Shown here one piece after another: positions 47,961 through 63,548 of a stretch of DNA of 64,000 nucleotides. A program made the position numbers and the translations under genes. The stretch covers positions 458,925 to 522,924 of the forward strand of contig DATETJ010000009.1 of the NCBI GenBank assembly GCA_035283685.1, in the 5' to 3' direction. The notes under the pieces are model-generated. The model made no database searches. It was not told where the DNA came from and saw only the letters and a program-made list of their open reading frames with translations. This DNA is from Candidatus Bathyarchaeia archaeon. Its GTDB lineage: Archaea; Thermoproteota; Bathyarchaeia; Bathyarchaeales; Bathyarchaeaceae. The number at the start of each line of letters is the position of its first letter. Position 1 is the first letter of the stretch.

Positions 47961-49673
47961 TTGGGCAATAATCAAAATCTTAACCTTAGCCTACAGTCGG
48001 TTCTTGAACGGTATCAGAAAGTGGAGCATCGGGAGTATCAAGTAGCCTGTATAAAGGGTGCGGTTGAAAGCATCAACAACGGCGCAGATGTAGTAATTGA
48101 TCTACCGACAGGGGCAGGTAAAACACTGGTGTATGCTCCTATCGTTGCTGACGTATCAGATAATGGGAGGAGTGCACTTGTTTTAACAGCAACGAAACAA
48201 GCACAGAGGCGTGTGAATTCTGAGATAAGACAGTTTCAGAGAAAATCGCAGCCAGTTCTCATCTATGGGATTCAGGAGTATGACTGCCCCGTTTTAGATT
48301 CAAAAGCTCAGAATTGGTGCTGTGGAGAGCTTAAGGAGGAACTCTGCAAACCAAAGGGTGTAGACTGCGCCGTAATCCAATCCGAAAAAAATTATAAAAC
48401 CTCCAATCTGGTTGTCACGAATTTCTCAAAGTTTCTTTTGGCGTCAGCAAATAGGAAGTACGACATTATAGTTTTGGACGATTCCCACAGCTTTGAAAAT
48501 ACGAAGGAACAAGCATATCAGATCATCATACACTATGCGCCTGTTAGAATTTTCTATGAGGAAGGGATACAACAGCCATCACTCTCCGTCATGGTTCAGG
48601 GTTTCCTGAACCTTTTTAGCGAAATCTTCGAACGATGCGTGAATCCAGAAGACAAGGAAGGAATCATAACTATAGAGTACATAAAGCGTTTAGCAGAACT
48701 TGTCAACAGCAAGAATGAAGAACAACTTAAGCAAGAGATCATGAGGCTTTCAGAACCCAAGCGTTCAATGTGTTGGAGCATCTACTATTTCATACGAAGA
48801 TGTAAGGAATCAAGCAAATACCAGTTCTATGTCAGAAAGGATTTTTATGATCCTCAAGATTGGGATTCGAGCGAACTAATCTCAAGAAGGGACGACATAG
48901 TTGAGTATATTATTCGTAACCGTTTCAATGACAGCAGAGTGATCTTTGTTACGGCGACACCCGGCGATGTGAATCTGCACGCTAATTCCTGCACTCTGAG
49001 AGACTACGATAGCATTAGACTTGAAATTGCACCTCCAAAGGACTCTCATTATCCAGAGATCGATAACTGGTTTCGAAAACTCGCAATTATAATAGTCGAC
49101 AATATAGGCGACACTAGGCAACAGAGTTACTTTGAAAAAGCCATTGGTCTGACGACGGACATACTCGAGAACCGAAAAGAGAGGGCACTCGTGCTCTTTA
49201 AGAACTACAGGGACCAGAGATCGGCCTATAATATCCTCTCGAAGAAATTTCCTTCGGACAAGCTTTTTTTCATAGACGTTTCACTGCAGGATAGTGATGT
49301 AATTGAAGAGATAGCTAGCAAGAAGAAAATATCATTGGCTTCTGCTTCTTCGACCTTGTGGGAGGGAATCAACATCAAGAAGTTAGGTCTGGCTATCATA
49401 ATCTCACCTCCATTCATTCGTCCGCACGTAGGCCATGCACTGAACTATCCATACTTCGAACGGAGAATGTTGATTCGGCTTCAACAAGGCATAGGCAGAA
49501 TCATCAGAAGCCCTGCAGACTTTGGAGTCGCGGTATTAACAGACAACCGCTTCAAAAGATACATTAATAGACGCATGTTCAATCAGAAATTGCGTGAGCG
49601 AGTTGAGTTTCTGAAATCGGACAAAGTTGTCTCTAGAATCAACGATTTGTTCTCTCAATGGGGGGCATCGTAA
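47961..49673 (+). CDS. XPD/DinG-like superfamily 2 helicase (helicase 1 of the Argonaute operon)
   Basis: The 570-aa protein has Walker A PTGAGKT (49-55), motif II VLDDSHSFEN with DDSH (173-176) in place of DEAH, VTATPGD (motif III), motif V SASSTLWEGINI and motif VI LQQGIGRIIRSPADFG...LTDNR. Motifs V and VI are typical of the XPD/Rad3/DinG branch. Cysteines C109, C120, C121, C129 and C136 lie between motifs Ia and II, where XPD has its FeS domain, so a cluster is plausible. TTG start after GAGGGAAAA. Its stop (TAA) abuts the Argonaute ATG, so the two are coupled. Confidence 0.85.
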   Translation: MGNNQNLNLSLQSVLERYQKVEHREYQVACIKGAVESINNGADVVIDLPTGAGKTLVYAPIVADVSDNGRSALVLTATKQAQRRVNSEIRQFQRKSQPVLIYGIQEYDCPVLDSKAQNWCCGELKEELCKPKGVDCAVIQSEKNYKTSNLVVTNFSKFLLASANRKYDIIVLDDSHSFENTKEQAYQIIIHYAPVRIFYEEGIQQPSLSVMVQGFLNLFSEIFERCVNPEDKEGIITIEYIKRLAELVNSKNEEQLKQEIMRLSEPKRSMCWSIYYFIRRCKESSKYQFYVRKDFYDPQDWDSSELISRRDDIVEYIIRNRFNDSRVIFVTATPGDVNLHANSCTLRDYDSIRLEIAPPKDSHYPEIDNWFRKLAIIIVDNIGDTRQQSYFEKAIGLTTDILENRKERALVLFKNYRDQRSAYNILSKKFPSDKLFFIDVSLQDSDVIEEIASKKKISLASASSTLWEGINIKKLGLAIIISPPFIRPHVGHALNYPYFERRMLIRLQQGIGRIIRSPADFGVAVLTDNRFKRYINRRMFNQKLRERVEFLKSDKVVSRINDLFSQWGAS

Positions 49674-51956
49674 ATGTATCATGCAAATCTGTTTCCGTTG
49701 ACAAGGCACGAGCCTCTTCCAGTATGTTGGTACACGCCCAGCATTGACCCCAAACCAATTAACAAGCCACAGCAGTATCAGATCCTCGGTATTGTTGCGA
49801 AGCAAATCCTGTATCGGGAAAGAAAGCCTTCTGTCTCAAGCGGACAGCAAATTATGTCGTTGTCTCCTATCTCCAAACTTACTGGACACGTTGCCGAGAT
49901 TCCTGAAGTTGGTAGGTTTAACGTCACGCTAGTCGACGCTGGCAGTTCTTCTGTGGGATTGGATCAGTTCGATCAATACCGACTTTTGGTGAATAGACTC
50001 GCAGACATAGCTCTCACAATGCTTTCCTCTGAATATTACAAGTTTCACCCGGAAGCTCCTTACATACTCCGCGACGAACCCTACTTTGATGCAGATCTTA
50101 TAGAGAAGACCGGTATTATAGATTCGAAAAAGTACTATCGAGGGCTTCATGAATTCAATAATTTGCCTGTCTTTGTACTCAACCGTGAAACTGAACTGAG
50201 ATCTCATAAGAACTTGCTCAACGAAATCAAGAGTCTAATGAAGTATTACGAATTGACAAGAAAGACCAATGCGGATTTCTACAATCCACCGAAGGAATTC
50301 GTCGATTACGTGAATTTCCTGCTGAGGGGTAAAGTTGCCGAGGTCATTAGTTATCCAGGGCCAAGTGTTAAGGAAATCAAGGAGGTAACCTGGCAGCACC
50401 GTGCATGCGACATAACACCAGGTTCTACAGCGTCTCATGTCGAATACTTGCGCGATACCTATGGCGTCCAAGAACTTGATCCAAAGCAGCCCTTAGTTGT
50501 ATACGAAATCGGACTGGACACGAAGCGAATACAGTACCATGTTCCAGAAGTGTTGTCAATTGGACACACATTCAGTGATCTGGAGAAGCGAATACCTCGT
50601 TGGCAGAGAACGCAGGTTTGGGGAGTGATCCATCCCGACTGCAAGAACCAGCTGCAAAAGATTTATGGGGTTCTGCTTGAAGTGGATCGAATGCTTCGAA
50701 CATACCTTCCTGAGATCTATCCAAAACTCGTGGAGATCTCAACCGAAGCGATGGATGTGACCTCACTTGTTTCCAAGCCAGCTGAGTTGAAACTCAAGTT
50801 TGGAAATAAGGATATGTTGATAAAGACACCGTATGACGTAAACTTCTATCATAGTTATACAGACAAGAAGCTCTCATTCGCAAGACCAATCGAAAACATT
50901 CGTGCACTAGTCTGCGGACCTGATAGGTCGCAGAAGATCAAGGTCTTCTTGACCGCGCTTGCAAAGGAATTCAAACTCAGGAACAATTCTGAGTTGAGTT
51001 TTGACTATGGGACACTGGATTTTGACAGAACTGATTACTCTGGTTATGACGCAGTGATCACTATAGGAAGCGACACAGGCGAAGGAGATGAAAAATACGA
51101 CAGATGCAAGGAGATACTCCAGAATTCATTAGGAATAATCCATCAACATGTTACTGAAGAACATGCGAATGAAGACTCTGTAATGGCGTTGGTTATGGAG
51201 ATTAACCTTAAGTTCGGAGGTGACCCTTGGCTACTTCCTGACCAAGAAAACATTCCATGCACGGTGGGAATCCATAGTTACTCCAATCCATACTCTGGAA
51301 AACAAGCTATATTCGCTTTAGCACTTGACGGCAGAGGCGCGTTGCTGAAGCAGTTCGACCCAGTACAACCAACGGACTTCGAAAACCTAGCTCAAGAACT
51401 ACTGGGCTTAAATGAAGACTACGGTCGGATTCTCTACGTTCTTTCATATGATCGATTCAATATTTTTGAGAAGCTAGAAGGCATTTTAGGAAGCACGGGC
51501 AAGAAAGTTGAATACTGCATCGCAGAGATAGACGATCAAGATTACGTTCGATTCTTTGAAACATGGCTGCCTAGAAAAGCGCCTAGGTTTGGCAAGATTG
51601 TTTCTGTACGTGAAAGACCACCAATCGAAGCCTATGAAAGCGCTCCCCAAGGCGTTGCATTGAAGTCTGATGATGACACCTTTTTCCTGCTTACAGGTAA
51701 GACAATAGAGAAAGATGCAACCAAGCGTGGGTGCCCGATGCCAATCAGACTTCTAATCAAGAAAAGGAAAGGCAAGACATGGGAAAGTTCCGATATTGTG
51801 AATCACGTATTCGCTTTGTCTATGATGGGACGAGCAAGCGGACACATGACTAGATTACCATCTCCGCTCTATTACCTTCAGTCTTATGCTTACTACTGGA
51901 ACAGATTTGGTGTCCCAAAAGATGAAAAAATCAGGCAACGAATCTTCTTCATATAA
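49674..51956 (+). CDS. Long prokaryotic Argonaute with altered catalytic site
   Basis: The 760-aa protein has the full Argonaute layout. PAZ: RGLHEFNNLPVFVLNR (~156), then SHVEYLRDTYG...PLVVYE...VPEVLSI (~254-296). MID (~405-520) keeps the guide 5'-phosphate set Y475, K479, Q491 and K513 (YDRCK; HQHV; NLKFGGDPW). PIWI (~525-760): CTVGIHSY has His534 where the first catalytic Asp stands; YDRFNIFE gives Asp593; the fourth position falls at N710/H711, and the C-terminus RIFFI is hydrophobic as in other Argonautes. Slicer activity is therefore probably lost while guide binding should remain. It lies between two XPD-like helicases in one operon, recalling DdmE, which acts with a helicase against plasmids. 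Confidence 0.9.
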   Translation: MYHANLFPLTRHEPLPVCWYTPSIDPKPINKPQQYQILGIVAKQILYRERKPSVSSGQQIMSLSPISKLTGHVAEIPEVGRFNVTLVDAGSSSVGLDQFDQYRLLVNRLADIALTMLSSEYYKFHPEAPYILRDEPYFDADLIEKTGIIDSKKYYRGLHEFNNLPVFVLNRETELRSHKNLLNEIKSLMKYYELTRKTNADFYNPPKEFVDYVNFLLRGKVAEVISYPGPSVKEIKEVTWQHRACDITPGSTASHVEYLRDTYGVQELDPKQPLVVYEIGLDTKRIQYHVPEVLSIGHTFSDLEKRIPRWQRTQVWGVIHPDCKNQLQKIYGVLLEVDRMLRTYLPEIYPKLVEISTEAMDVTSLVSKPAELKLKFGNKDMLIKTPYDVNFYHSYTDKKLSFARPIENIRALVCGPDRSQKIKVFLTALAKEFKLRNNSELSFDYGTLDFDRTDYSGYDAVITIGSDTGEGDEKYDRCKEILQNSLGIIHQHVTEEHANEDSVMALVMEINLKFGGDPWLLPDQENIPCTVGIHSYSNPYSGKQAIFALALDGRGALLKQFDPVQPTDFENLAQELLGLNEDYGRILYVLSYDRFNIFEKLEGILGSTGKKVEYCIAEIDDQDYVRFFETWLPRKAPRFGKIVSVRERPPIEAYESAPQGVALKSDDDTFFLLTGKTIEKDATKRGCPMPIRLLIKKRKGKTWESSDIVNHVFALSMMGRASGHMTRLPSPLYYLQSYAYYWNRFGVPKDEKIRQRIFFI

Positions 51957-53319
51957 ACTATCGACTATTCGACTTCCTCCATTTAGAAGTTGGTTACAAG
52001 CACTTCAGGTTTATTCGAAAAAATGTCAGAAGCATGGCTCTTTTTTGCACTCTCAAAAGGAGCTTCTTAAACAAATTCATTACGCAATTACCCGCCCTGA
52101 ATTCAAAGTTGTTACTTTCACAGCACCTCCAGCATCTGGAAAGACACATGTAATCGCCCTCTGTGCATCTTATTTCCATGATCATGACATATCAACGTGT
52201 ATTGTAACTCCTAACAACGAACTCAGATTCGAATTTCAGAAAGAGCTAGCCGAAGTCAATTGCAGATCAGAAGAGTCTCCGCCAGTAATCAATGTTGGCG
52301 CCTATGTCAAGAAGAGGCATGACTATGAATTTGCGTTTATTGATGAAGCTCACAACCTACGATCCGCGATCGAGTTGGACAGAGACATCGTCAAGTCCAT
52401 TCACTTGGAAAAAGGAGAACCGCTTTACGAGGCTATCGTATCCTCTCTGGAAAAAGGTGAAGGTTATACCACAAAAGAACTAAGTGCTGAAAGTGCCCAT
52501 GATATACTCGAGGGGATGATTGAAAGCAAGTATAAAAGTAGTGTTACGCAAATTCTGAAAACCTTATCTCAATGGCGTGGTTTCTGCATTGTTTGTGATA
52601 CTACTTGTGACCTGAAGTTTCTGCTTGCTGACCCTGACAGAAGAGGACTTGTACCCAAGGGAAAATTATTTCTTTTTTCTGCGACTCTTTTGGATCCGAA
52701 GGAACTTCAGTTCTACTGTAATATCCCAAATGAAATGGTTCAAAATATAGGCGACAGCCAGAACGACTTCGTACCGAAAAAGAATGTTGCATATCGTTAC
52801 ATCTCATGCAATTCGAATGGTGAGAAGAAGAATCTAGTAGTATTCTTGCTGAAAAATACAAGACTGCGAACCTTGATTCTTGTTAACAGCAATTCGATGT
52901 GTCTCAAATGGGACAAAGCACTCTCACGGAAACTGGGAAACAGAGTCATGACGATAGGGTCAGGTCTTCATTACACAGAGAGGCTTAATGTCTATAGGAA
53001 ATTCGTGTGTCACCCAAATCCCATTCTGCTGACTTCTTCCAACGTTTACTGGGAAGGGATATCGATTAAGGATCTGAGACTCCTGATAATTCCTAACCCT
53101 CCGTTTCCCCAGCCGAGTCTTCTGGAGATAGCTGAAGGAAAGCACACTCAGTATAGCAAGATAGCCAAGAGGCGGCTCATTCAAGGTATGGGCAGGGTGG
53201 GGAGATCACCTCAAGAGAATGGAATATGCCTTCTCTTATTTCGTTCACGAAATCTGGCGAGTCATATCAAGGCTACTACAAAATATAAAGCGATACATCT
53301 GATCACCGATTTGGGCTGA
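51922..53319 (+). CDS. XPD/DinG-like superfamily 2 helicase (helicase 2 of the Argonaute operon)
   Basis: The 465-aa protein has Walker A APPASGKT (68-75), DEAH box FIDEAHNLRS (141-144), motif III LFSATLLDP, motif V SSNVYWEGISI and motif VI LIQGMGRVGRSPQENG. It is distinct from helicase 1: it has a normal DEAH box and no cysteine group for an FeS cluster. I use ATG 51922, overlapping the Argonaute stop by 35 nt; a GTG at 51910 and an ATG at 51886 are alternatives. The first element copy of the three-copy family begins 23 nt after its stop. Confidence 0.85.
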   Translation: MKKSGNESSSYKLSTIRLPPFRSWLQALQVYSKKCQKHGSFLHSQKELLKQIHYAITRPEFKVVTFTAPPASGKTHVIALCASYFHDHDISTCIVTPNNELRFEFQKELAEVNCRSEESPPVINVGAYVKKRHDYEFAFIDEAHNLRSAIELDRDIVKSIHLEKGEPLYEAIVSSLEKGEGYTTKELSAESAHDILEGMIESKYKSSVTQILKTLSQWRGFCIVCDTTCDLKFLLADPDRRGLVPKGKLFLFSATLLDPKELQFYCNIPNEMVQNIGDSQNDFVPKKNVAYRYISCNSNGEKKNLVVFLLKNTRLRTLILVNSNSMCLKWDKALSRKLGNRVMTIGSGLHYTERLNVYRKFVCHPNPILLTSSNVYWEGISIKDLRLLIIPNPPFPQPSLLEIAEGKHTQYSKIAKRRLIQGMGRVGRSPQENGICLLLFRSRNLASHIKATTKYKAIHLITDLG

Positions 53320-54455: not shown

Positions 54456-54785
54456 GTGAACCCTTTGACACTCAAGCCACTGGCAGTAAGGATACCTGAA
54501 GAGATTGAGAAAGAAATTCTAGAAGCAGTTGACCGCATGAAACTCGACAAAGCCACAGTGGTTAGAACACTCCTCGAAATGGGAATCGAGGAATGGAGAA
54601 AACAAACTGCTCTAGAACTGTTACGAAACGGAAAAGTAACGTTTGCCAAAGCCGCAGAAATGGCCAAACTCTCACTCTGGGAACTCGCTGACCTAGTGAA
54701 ACAACGCAACGTAGAATGGGTCAGGTACACACCTGAAGAGATCGAAAAAGAACTAAAAGAAGCCACTGTGGCGGACTCCGAGTGA
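54456..54785 (+). CDS. UPF0175 family antitoxin
   Basis: The ~109-aa protein has an N-terminal Arc-like region (AVRIPEEIEKEILEAVDRMKLDKATVVRTLLEMG) and the UPF0175 helix-turn-helix pattern ALELLRNGKVTFAKAAEMAKLSLWELADLVKQRNV. In archaea this family is paired with PIN toxins. A TATA-like TATTTATG at 54422-54429 puts transcription start near 54450, so GTG 54456 is preferred over TTG 54447. It overlaps the toxin gene by 4 nt (GTGA). Confidence 0.85.
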   Translation: MNPLTLKPLAVRIPEEIEKEILEAVDRMKLDKATVVRTLLEMGIEEWRKQTALELLRNGKVTFAKAAEMAKLSLWELADLVKQRNVEWVRYTPEEIEKELKEATVADSE

Positions 54786-55336
54786 AGCCACTCGTCTTCA
54801 ACGCCACACCATTAATCTACATAACCAAAGTCGGACTAGCAAAGATCCTCGAACAATTAAAAGATGAAAAACTAACTTCACCACACGTCAAAAGAGAAGT
54901 CGTAGACAAAGGAAAGCGCAAAGGTATTCCAGACGCCATCATTCTGGACAAAATGTTCACTGACCACGTTTTCAAAGTTACCGAAGTCAAGAACAAGAGA
55001 CTCCTCGCAAGTCTACTGGAGACAAAAGGGCTCCACATAACCGATGCAGAAGTCCTAGTCATTGCACGAGAACAAAACGGCATAGCAGTTATCGACGATG
55101 AGGTAGCAAGAAAAACCGCACGGATATTCGCAATATCGTATGTAGGCACACCTTGTATCCTGATGAGAGCTGTCTGTCACGGGCTGATTACAAAAGAAAG
55201 AGCAAAACAAGCCATAAACGAAATGACCCTCCAAGGCTGGAGATGCAGCCTAGAAAGCTACTCAAAAATAATGGAAGCCCTAGAAAGATGCGACAAGCGG
55301 CAAGGAAGAACACGAATCGAAAAACCAAAGAAATAA
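54782..55336 (+). CDS. PIN-domain toxin (DUF3368-like)
   Basis: The 184-aa protein shows the PIN layout: VFNATPLIYITKVG at the N-terminus, HITDAEVLVIAREQNG with acidic residues in the middle, and AVIDDEVARKTAR for the C-terminal acidic pair. In this subfamily the first acidic position is often Asn, as here. It is predicted to cut RNA and is neutralised by the UPF0175 protein it overlaps. The C-terminal ~30 residues are basic. Confidence 0.85.
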   Translation: MKPLVFNATPLIYITKVGLAKILEQLKDEKLTSPHVKREVVDKGKRKGIPDAIILDKMFTDHVFKVTEVKNKRLLASLLETKGLHITDAEVLVIAREQNGIAVIDDEVARKTARIFAISYVGTPCILMRAVCHGLITKERAKQAINEMTLQGWRCSLESYSKIMEALERCDKRQGRTRIEKPKK

Positions 55337-62581: not shown

Positions 62582-62732
62582 GCGCGCAAACAACCTAATC
62601 ATAGAAGCAAAACCAACAGAATGAAGGGCGAAACGATTAACGCGTGTGCATGGATAGTGGATGGCGCGCGCTTCACAGGCTGCATGTCTTTTAAATCTTA
62701 GAAGACTACAGTTGAGTTTGTGGTGTAGTGCG

Positions 62733-63548
62733 ATGAAAGCAATATTTGTTGGAATTTTCGTTTTGTTGAGTTTGGTTCTCACTGTGCCTAGGGTTAATGC
62801 GCAACCGTATTTCGCAGTTTATCCTACTGAAGGCAATGTTAATACAGATATATTTCTACAAATAAGAGGGTTACCTGGTACTGGTTTCTACGAGGTTTAC
62901 TATCTCTATATTTTCTGGGATGATATTTTGCTTGGAACATTCCCTGACAATTCTCAAACTTACAATCATTACTTTGACACTCATTTTTCCCCACCGAACA
63001 GCGGAAGTTATTCTGCACTAGGAAACCATACCGTCTACTTCGAAGTTTGGAATGCTGGTAGAGGCACGATGTTTATCAATGCAACATTTGACTTCACAAT
63101 TACAGAGTATCTTCCTTGCCCTGAATATCTTGCTATGAATGCTACGTACTATGAGCTACTTGGCAACTACACCAATCTTTTAGCCAACTACAATTCGCTG
63201 TTTGTCAATTATACTGCCTTACTAGCTGATTACAATTCATTATCGACAAACTACAATAATCTCTTCAAAAGCTATGATTCCTTGGCAAAACACTATAGTT
63301 CTCTCAATTCTACTTATGATGAGCTGACAGACAACTATGGCGGTTTACAAGCAAGCTACGATTCTCTGAAAACAAACTTTGATAGATTGGAGTCAGACTA
63401 TAATTCGCTGAAATCAAACAACAGCAACCTGACAACAAGTTATGATGCTCTAGTCGGTGAACTGGTTTCCACTAGGAACTTGAGCTACATATTCATTACA
63501 ACAACGTTGATATTCGTAGCTACAACTGTCTTCTTTGCGGCTAGATAA
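62733..63548 (+). CDS. Heptad-repeat surface protein with signal peptide and C-terminal anchor
   Basis: The 271-aa protein has a signal peptide (~1-23, IFVGIFVLLSLVLTVPRVNA), a beta-rich domain (24-128), fourteen 7-residue repeats of the form [NSD]-Y-x-x-L-x-x (about 145-242), and a C-terminal membrane helix (251-270). The repeats predict an extended coiled-coil stalk displaying the N-terminal domain outside the cell. Many N-x-S/T sequons suggest N-glycosylation. Start ATG 62733; a TATA-like CTTTTAAATC lies ~45 nt upstream. Likely an S-layer-associated or adhesion protein. Confidence 0.85.
   Translation: MKAIFVGIFVLLSLVLTVPRVNAQPYFAVYPTEGNVNTDIFLQIRGLPGTGFYEVYYLYIFWDDILLGTFPDNSQTYNHYFDTHFSPPNSGSYSALGNHTVYFEVWNAGRGTMFINATFDFTITEYLPCPEYLAMNATYYELLGNYTNLLANYNSLFVNYTALLADYNSLSTNYNNLFKSYDSLAKHYSSLNSTYDELTDNYGGLQASYDSLKTNFDRLESDYNSLKSNNSNLTTSYDALVGELVSTRNLSYIFITTTLIFVATTVFFAAR

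Follow-up and report, generated by a model that had tools for sequence, protein, structure and literature searches.

Catalytically dead Argonautes often have a nuclease or a toxic effector as their partner, and prokaryotic Argonaute (pAgo) operons with helicase-containing proteins are known in general. In pPIWI-RE operons a guide-binding PIWI protein and a DinG helicase are found with a REase (PMC3702460; Burroughs 2013). Type IV-A CRISPR systems achieve interference without a nuclease, through DinG (PMC11519345, PMC12714560). The Asgard Argonaute HrAgo1 has RNA-guided slicing activity (PMC11217426). For Bathyarchaeia, the open-licence literature searched mentions Argonautes only in passing, in noting a pPIWI gene carried by a provirus (PMC11705971). 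No published description of a Hel1-Ago-Hel2 operon, or of a dead PIWI-like Argonaute, in Bathyarchaeia was found there.

Here we describe such an operon in a 64,000-nucleotide stretch of a bathyarchaeial genome (the window). A gene for a long Argonaute lies between the genes for two helicases, Hel1 and Hel2 (Table 1). This arrangement points to a system for defence or gene silencing, which would block its targets by unwinding them and not by cutting them.

Table 1. Coordinates of the operon genes and of the Argonaute domains and key residues, in window positions
Feature	Position	Strand	Basis or remark
Hel1, DinG/XPD-like SF2 helicase, 570 aa	47961..49673	+	Pfam, PADLOC and PDB matches
Argonaute, N-PAZ-MID-PIWI, predicted slicer-dead, 760 aa	49674..51956	+	Pfam, PADLOC, Foldseek
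PAZ core, residues about 235-298	50376..50567	+	Pfam and PDB profile matches
MID domain, residues about 405-520	50886..51233	+	AlphaFold2 model and PDB profile alignment
Y475 to K479, putative 5'-phosphate pocket	51096..51110	+	K479 invariant, Y475 variable
Q491, putative 5'-phosphate pocket	51144..51146	+	invariant, 7/7
K513, putative 5'-phosphate pocket	51210..51212	+	invariant, 7/7
PIWI domain, residues about 521-760	51234..51953	+	AlphaFold2 model and EfPiwi alignment
H534 (codon CAT), first catalytic Asp position	51273..51275	+	column is Asp in P0002 and EfPiwi
D593, second catalytic Asp position	51450..51452	+	kept in 4/6 members
Q736, fourth catalytic position	51879..51881	+	Q/Q/R/Q/K/K in the family, Asp746 in P0002
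Hel2, DinG-like SF2 helicase without Cys cluster	51922..53319	+	Pfam and PADLOC matches

The Argonaute frame is intact over its 760 codons and encodes a real long Argonaute with PAZ, MID and PIWI domains. It is matched by the PADLOC pAgo model (6.6e-22). The Pfam Piwi domain is recognized in all six members of the family described below (best 9.2e-10) and the Pfam PAZ domain in four of them (best 2.4e-5). A single-sequence PDB search with P0001 gave no match; the structures of relatives were reached by profiles, and the PAZ stretch of the family profile matches the PAZ of PIWI structures. Foldseek comparison of the AlphaFold2 models with Argonautes gave E values of 1.6e-24 for the full-length protein and 3.7e-15 for MID-PIWI. 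The models were built from six sequences only, the full-length one is middling (pLDDT 70.6, pTM 0.43), and they were used for the fold alone. Because the superposition of MID-PIWI is imprecise (TM 0.41-0.46), residues were mapped by sequence columns together with predicted secondary structure.

Five relatives of the window Argonaute were identified, four of them in the class of the window genome (L002, L004, L005 and L007) and one at L003. They are either 53-57% or 34% identical to it (range 34-57%). Within the class, 5 of 257 genomes carry the gene; 398 genomes drawn from across the phylum yielded no further close family members, and no relatives were found in the viral contigs scanned. The L003 contig is titled Thaumarchaeota, and its Argonaute is the sister of the window protein (100/98), within the Bathyarchaeia family. 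This placement may reflect gene transfer or a mislabelled genome. In addition, a genome from the order of the window genome (G066, L028) encodes a very divergent Piwi-domain protein of 499 aa with a 255-aa neighbour upstream.

A preliminary description of the window had proposed that the first catalytic Asp of the PIWI domain is replaced by His534 (VGIHSY). The codon is confirmed, and the residue aligns with the catalytic Asp of EfPiwi (VVGID) and with D550 (VIGLD) of P0002, a long Argonaute whose genome belongs to the same phylum but to a different class. This column reads H/N/H/N/Y/Y in the six members (window first). His534 is not a sequencing error, since the catalytic Asp is lost across the whole family. 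The codons at this position are CAY, AAY and TAY, each one first-base step from GAY, and they are compatible with repeated drift once the constraint was gone. The fourth catalytic position is occupied by Q736, the residue after YYL in P-x-P-L-Y-Y-L-Q, which aligns with the His of EfPiwi NYAHKLA. The first and fourth columns are non-acidic in every member and both are Asp in P0002. The DEDX tetrad of catalytically active long-A pAgos is absent from all six proteins.

Two further elements of the proposed active site fared differently. Asp593 is present and directly follows a strand in the AlphaFold2 model, as expected of the second Asp; however, it is replaced, by I and by W, in the two members that diverge most. 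The spacing of about 117 residues from Asp593 to N710/H711 had been taken as a match to active enzymes and proves to be a coincidence. Neither residue is conserved (columns N/K/K/N/H/H and H/S/F/H/Y/T), and both lie one helix too early to be the fourth catalytic residue. Judged by these columns, the slicer site is incomplete in every member of the family. Slicing is very unlikely in the family because the first and fourth catalytic columns are non-acidic, and we predict with high confidence that neither the window Argonaute nor its relatives slice.

A guide pocket for a 5' phosphate had been proposed from Y475, K479, Q491 and K513. K479, Q491 and K513, together with T494, do not vary among the six members or in P0002. 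The pocket residues follow the canonical motif order with similar spacing in the family and P0002, and the window protein fits the MID type that receives 5'-phosphate guides (YK..Q..K). The exception is Y475, whose column reads Y/H/Y/Y/M/I in the family and Y in P0002. Because this residue is not conserved, the affinity of the pocket may differ between members. The C-terminal carboxylate of known pAgos and PIWIs helps bind the guide phosphate. In all family members the C-terminus falls in the same alignment column and the last residue is hydrophobic. The invariant pocket residues and this shared C-terminal column make it likely that the window Argonaute binds a guide.

Hel1 matches Pfam Helicase_C_2 (2.6e-17), the PADLOC model typeIV_DinG (1.9e-33) and XPD in the PDB (2.3e-6). 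Four Cys of the FeS-cluster type (YDC, NWC, ELC, VDC) lie within 48276-48368, are invariant in all seven aligned homologues, and their placement matches that in the DinG/XPD FeS domain. Relatives of Hel1 keep Walker A, DDSH and motifs III and VI; the L007 copy ends at the edge of its stretch, and its Walker A is outside the aligned part. Hel2 matches the same two models, Helicase_C_2 at 3.6e-10 and typeIV_DinG at 5.5e-14, and keeps Walker A, DEAH and motif VI. A QGxGRxxR motif is conserved in both helicases.

The gene order Hel1-Ago-Hel2 is the same in all six loci. The Argonaute gene begins directly after the Hel1 stop. If Hel2 starts at the position given in Table 1, it overlaps the Argonaute gene by 35 nt, an arrangement also seen at L002 and L003; the longest Hel2 frame runs from 51886. 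This adjacency and overlap suggest coupled translation. In an all-against-all BLAST of the flanking frames of the six loci these three are the only common genes, and no recurrent nuclease was detected.

The operon resembles the pPIWI-RE triad in having three genes, a PIWI protein and a DinG-family helicase. It differs in its gene order, its archaeal host and the presence of a second helicase in place of the REase. The REase gene that comes first in pPIWI-RE operons is absent, the genes shared with the Argonaute across the six loci being the two helicases alone. Membership in pPIWI-RE was rejected, as none of the six Argonautes has a pPIWI-RE Pfam match at E values up to 1. Short and SiAgo-like pAgo systems combine a protein of MID and PIWI alone with the gene of a toxic or membrane effector; assignment to them is excluded by the length of 760 aa with a PAZ domain, by the tree (84/89) and by the absence of a shared effector gene. 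With the inactive long pAgos (RsAgo type, long-B) the family shares a PIWI domain predicted to be inactive and a 5'-phosphate pocket. It differs from them in its PIWI-like affinity, judged from a tree without long-B sequences, and in its dedicated two-helicase operon.

The likeness to type IV-A CRISPR-Cas with CasDinG (Csf4) is one of proposed function: guide-directed recognition, no nuclease, and a DinG-family helicase as the likely effector. The best PADLOC model of both Hel1 and Hel2 is a type IV-associated DinG. However, the guide carrier here would be an Argonaute instead of Cas5/6/7/8, and there are two helicases. CasDinG has no Cys cluster, whereas Hel1 has one, and the cas_csf4 model reaches an E value of only 0.0017, far below its cut-off. 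Beyond Hel1, Ago and Hel2 the six loci have no genes in common, and so none for a Csf/Cas5-7-8 complex.

The sequence affinities of the Argonaute point toward PIWI proteins. Searched against solved structures, the family profile finds those of the PIWI clade first, with EfPiwi at E 5.4e-7 over both the PAZ and the MID-PIWI parts, and HrAgo1 is absent from its matches. Eukaryotic PIWI proteins are thus the best solved-structure matches of the family, PAZ included. The family differs from them and from HrAgo1 in being archaeal, predicted to be catalytically dead and encoded in a helicase operon. P0002 (L035 9718-12036) is approximately 21-23% identical to the window family, and its catalytic Asp residues are apparently intact. 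Its best solved match is a eukaryotic PIWI (2.3e-28), far above HrAgo1 (8.4e-12); it matches CpAgo at 2.8e-10. In a MID-PIWI tree the window family (100/100) joins P0002 and EfPiwi at 89/87, apart from the MjAgo/TtdAgo-type and short pAgos (short: 84/89). The tree is small, has long branches and one eukaryotic sequence, and leaves out AGO, HrAgo1 and long-B, and the grouping is suggestive only. The family appears to belong to PIWI-like archaeal Argonautes outside Asgard archaea, and such proteins bear on the origin of eukaryotic PIWI proteins.

Directly downstream of P0002 is a DinG-like helicase that shares the Cys pattern of Hel1, and there is no Hel2 at this locus. Because this Cys-cluster helicase is closest to Hel1, the link between Argonaute and Hel1 may be older than the loss of slicing. 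P0002 and its helicase (L035:9718-13701, G578:C6) lie beside restriction-type genes, in a genome that is 68% complete and on a contig that may be contaminated.

Since the operon has no nuclease and two helicases are always present, guided binding followed by helicase action is the simplest reading. The preliminary description had likewise expected binding without slicing, with the helicases or another protein doing the work. The two non-acidic columns, the Lys/Gln/Lys pocket and the helicases in 6/6 loci, all read from sequence, support this. The Argonaute would load a short 5'-phosphorylated guide, pair with a complementary target and stay bound to it. The target would most likely be an R-loop or transcribed DNA of an invading element. 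Hel1 (FeS type, presumably 5'-3') and Hel2 would be recruited to the bound site and would unwind the opened DNA or translocate along it. Transcription and replication of the target would be blocked and the DNA left uncut, as with CasDinG in type IV-A CRISPR.

A three-protein, nuclease-free, guide-directed system is the best explanation of the operon, and we give it an even chance of being correct. The action of recruited helicases as effectors at the target may be right or wrong with about equal probability, and an outcome free of any nuclease falls somewhat short of that. More tentatively still, the operon could be to Argonautes what type IV-A is to CRISPR, a system of immunity or silencing that works without a nuclease. 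It would then be built on a PIWI-like archaeal Argonaute whose slicing ancestor was already tied to a Cys-cluster DinG-type helicase, and its two helicases would block the target by unwinding. If so, a dead Argonaute with two DinG/XPD-type helicases alone would represent a distinct strategy that converged with type IV-A CRISPR. It could also provide a compact guide-programmed silencing tool that leaves DNA uncut.

An unlikely alternative, although the strongest, is a split restriction system similar to pPIWI-RE. In it the target, marked by the dead Argonaute and opened by the helicases, would be degraded by an unlinked nuclease of the host. The union of PIWI and DinG with a REase in pPIWI-RE operons (PMC3702460) provides a precedent; however, no nuclease gene is common to the six loci. 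Slightly less probable is an upstream role in which the helicases serve guide production or loading by unwinding duplexes or R-loops, and the Argonaute by itself blocks the target as a roadblock. A passage in PMC10991935 cites dead RsAgo as able to act by binding alone, and HrAgo1 is also flanked by a DExD/H helicase, which has been compared with Dicer (PMC11217426). However, accounts of DinG-family helicases mostly concern DNA and R-loops, and it would be unusual for loading to involve two helicases.

A chromosomal role, in R-loop resolution, replication-transcription conflict or gene regulation instead of defence, is improbable. R-loops are a substrate of DinG-like helicases, and deletion of piwi-re affects cell division (PMC10991935), but the patchy presence of the gene in the class and the defence-type neighbours at some loci (Vsr, SLFN-AlbA_2, the PIN-like PDC-S70) argue against such a role. 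Slicing through an altered active site, with H534 and D593 or other residues, is extremely improbable, for although D593 is kept in four members, it is gone in two, and the first and fourth positions are H/N/Y and Q/R/K family-wide.

The flanks of individual loci carry several other genes. At L003 the neighbours include a Vsr endonuclease and a frame resembling a cytosine methylase, and at L009 an SLFN-AlbA_2 protein. The stretch L008:87-5469, beside the operon, may be a separate defence cassette: it encodes a DEAD/ResIII-Helicase_C_2 protein of 885 aa, a possible GIY-YIG protein and an unknown protein of 546 aa. In the window, a PIN-like protein of the PADLOC candidate defence family PDC-S70 (7.5e-19) is encoded just downstream of the operon at 54782-55336. 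Farther along, the 295-aa product of 62661-63548 has a coiled coil resembling a leucine zipper and matches HALZ at 9.3e-11, a match that is probably composition-driven.
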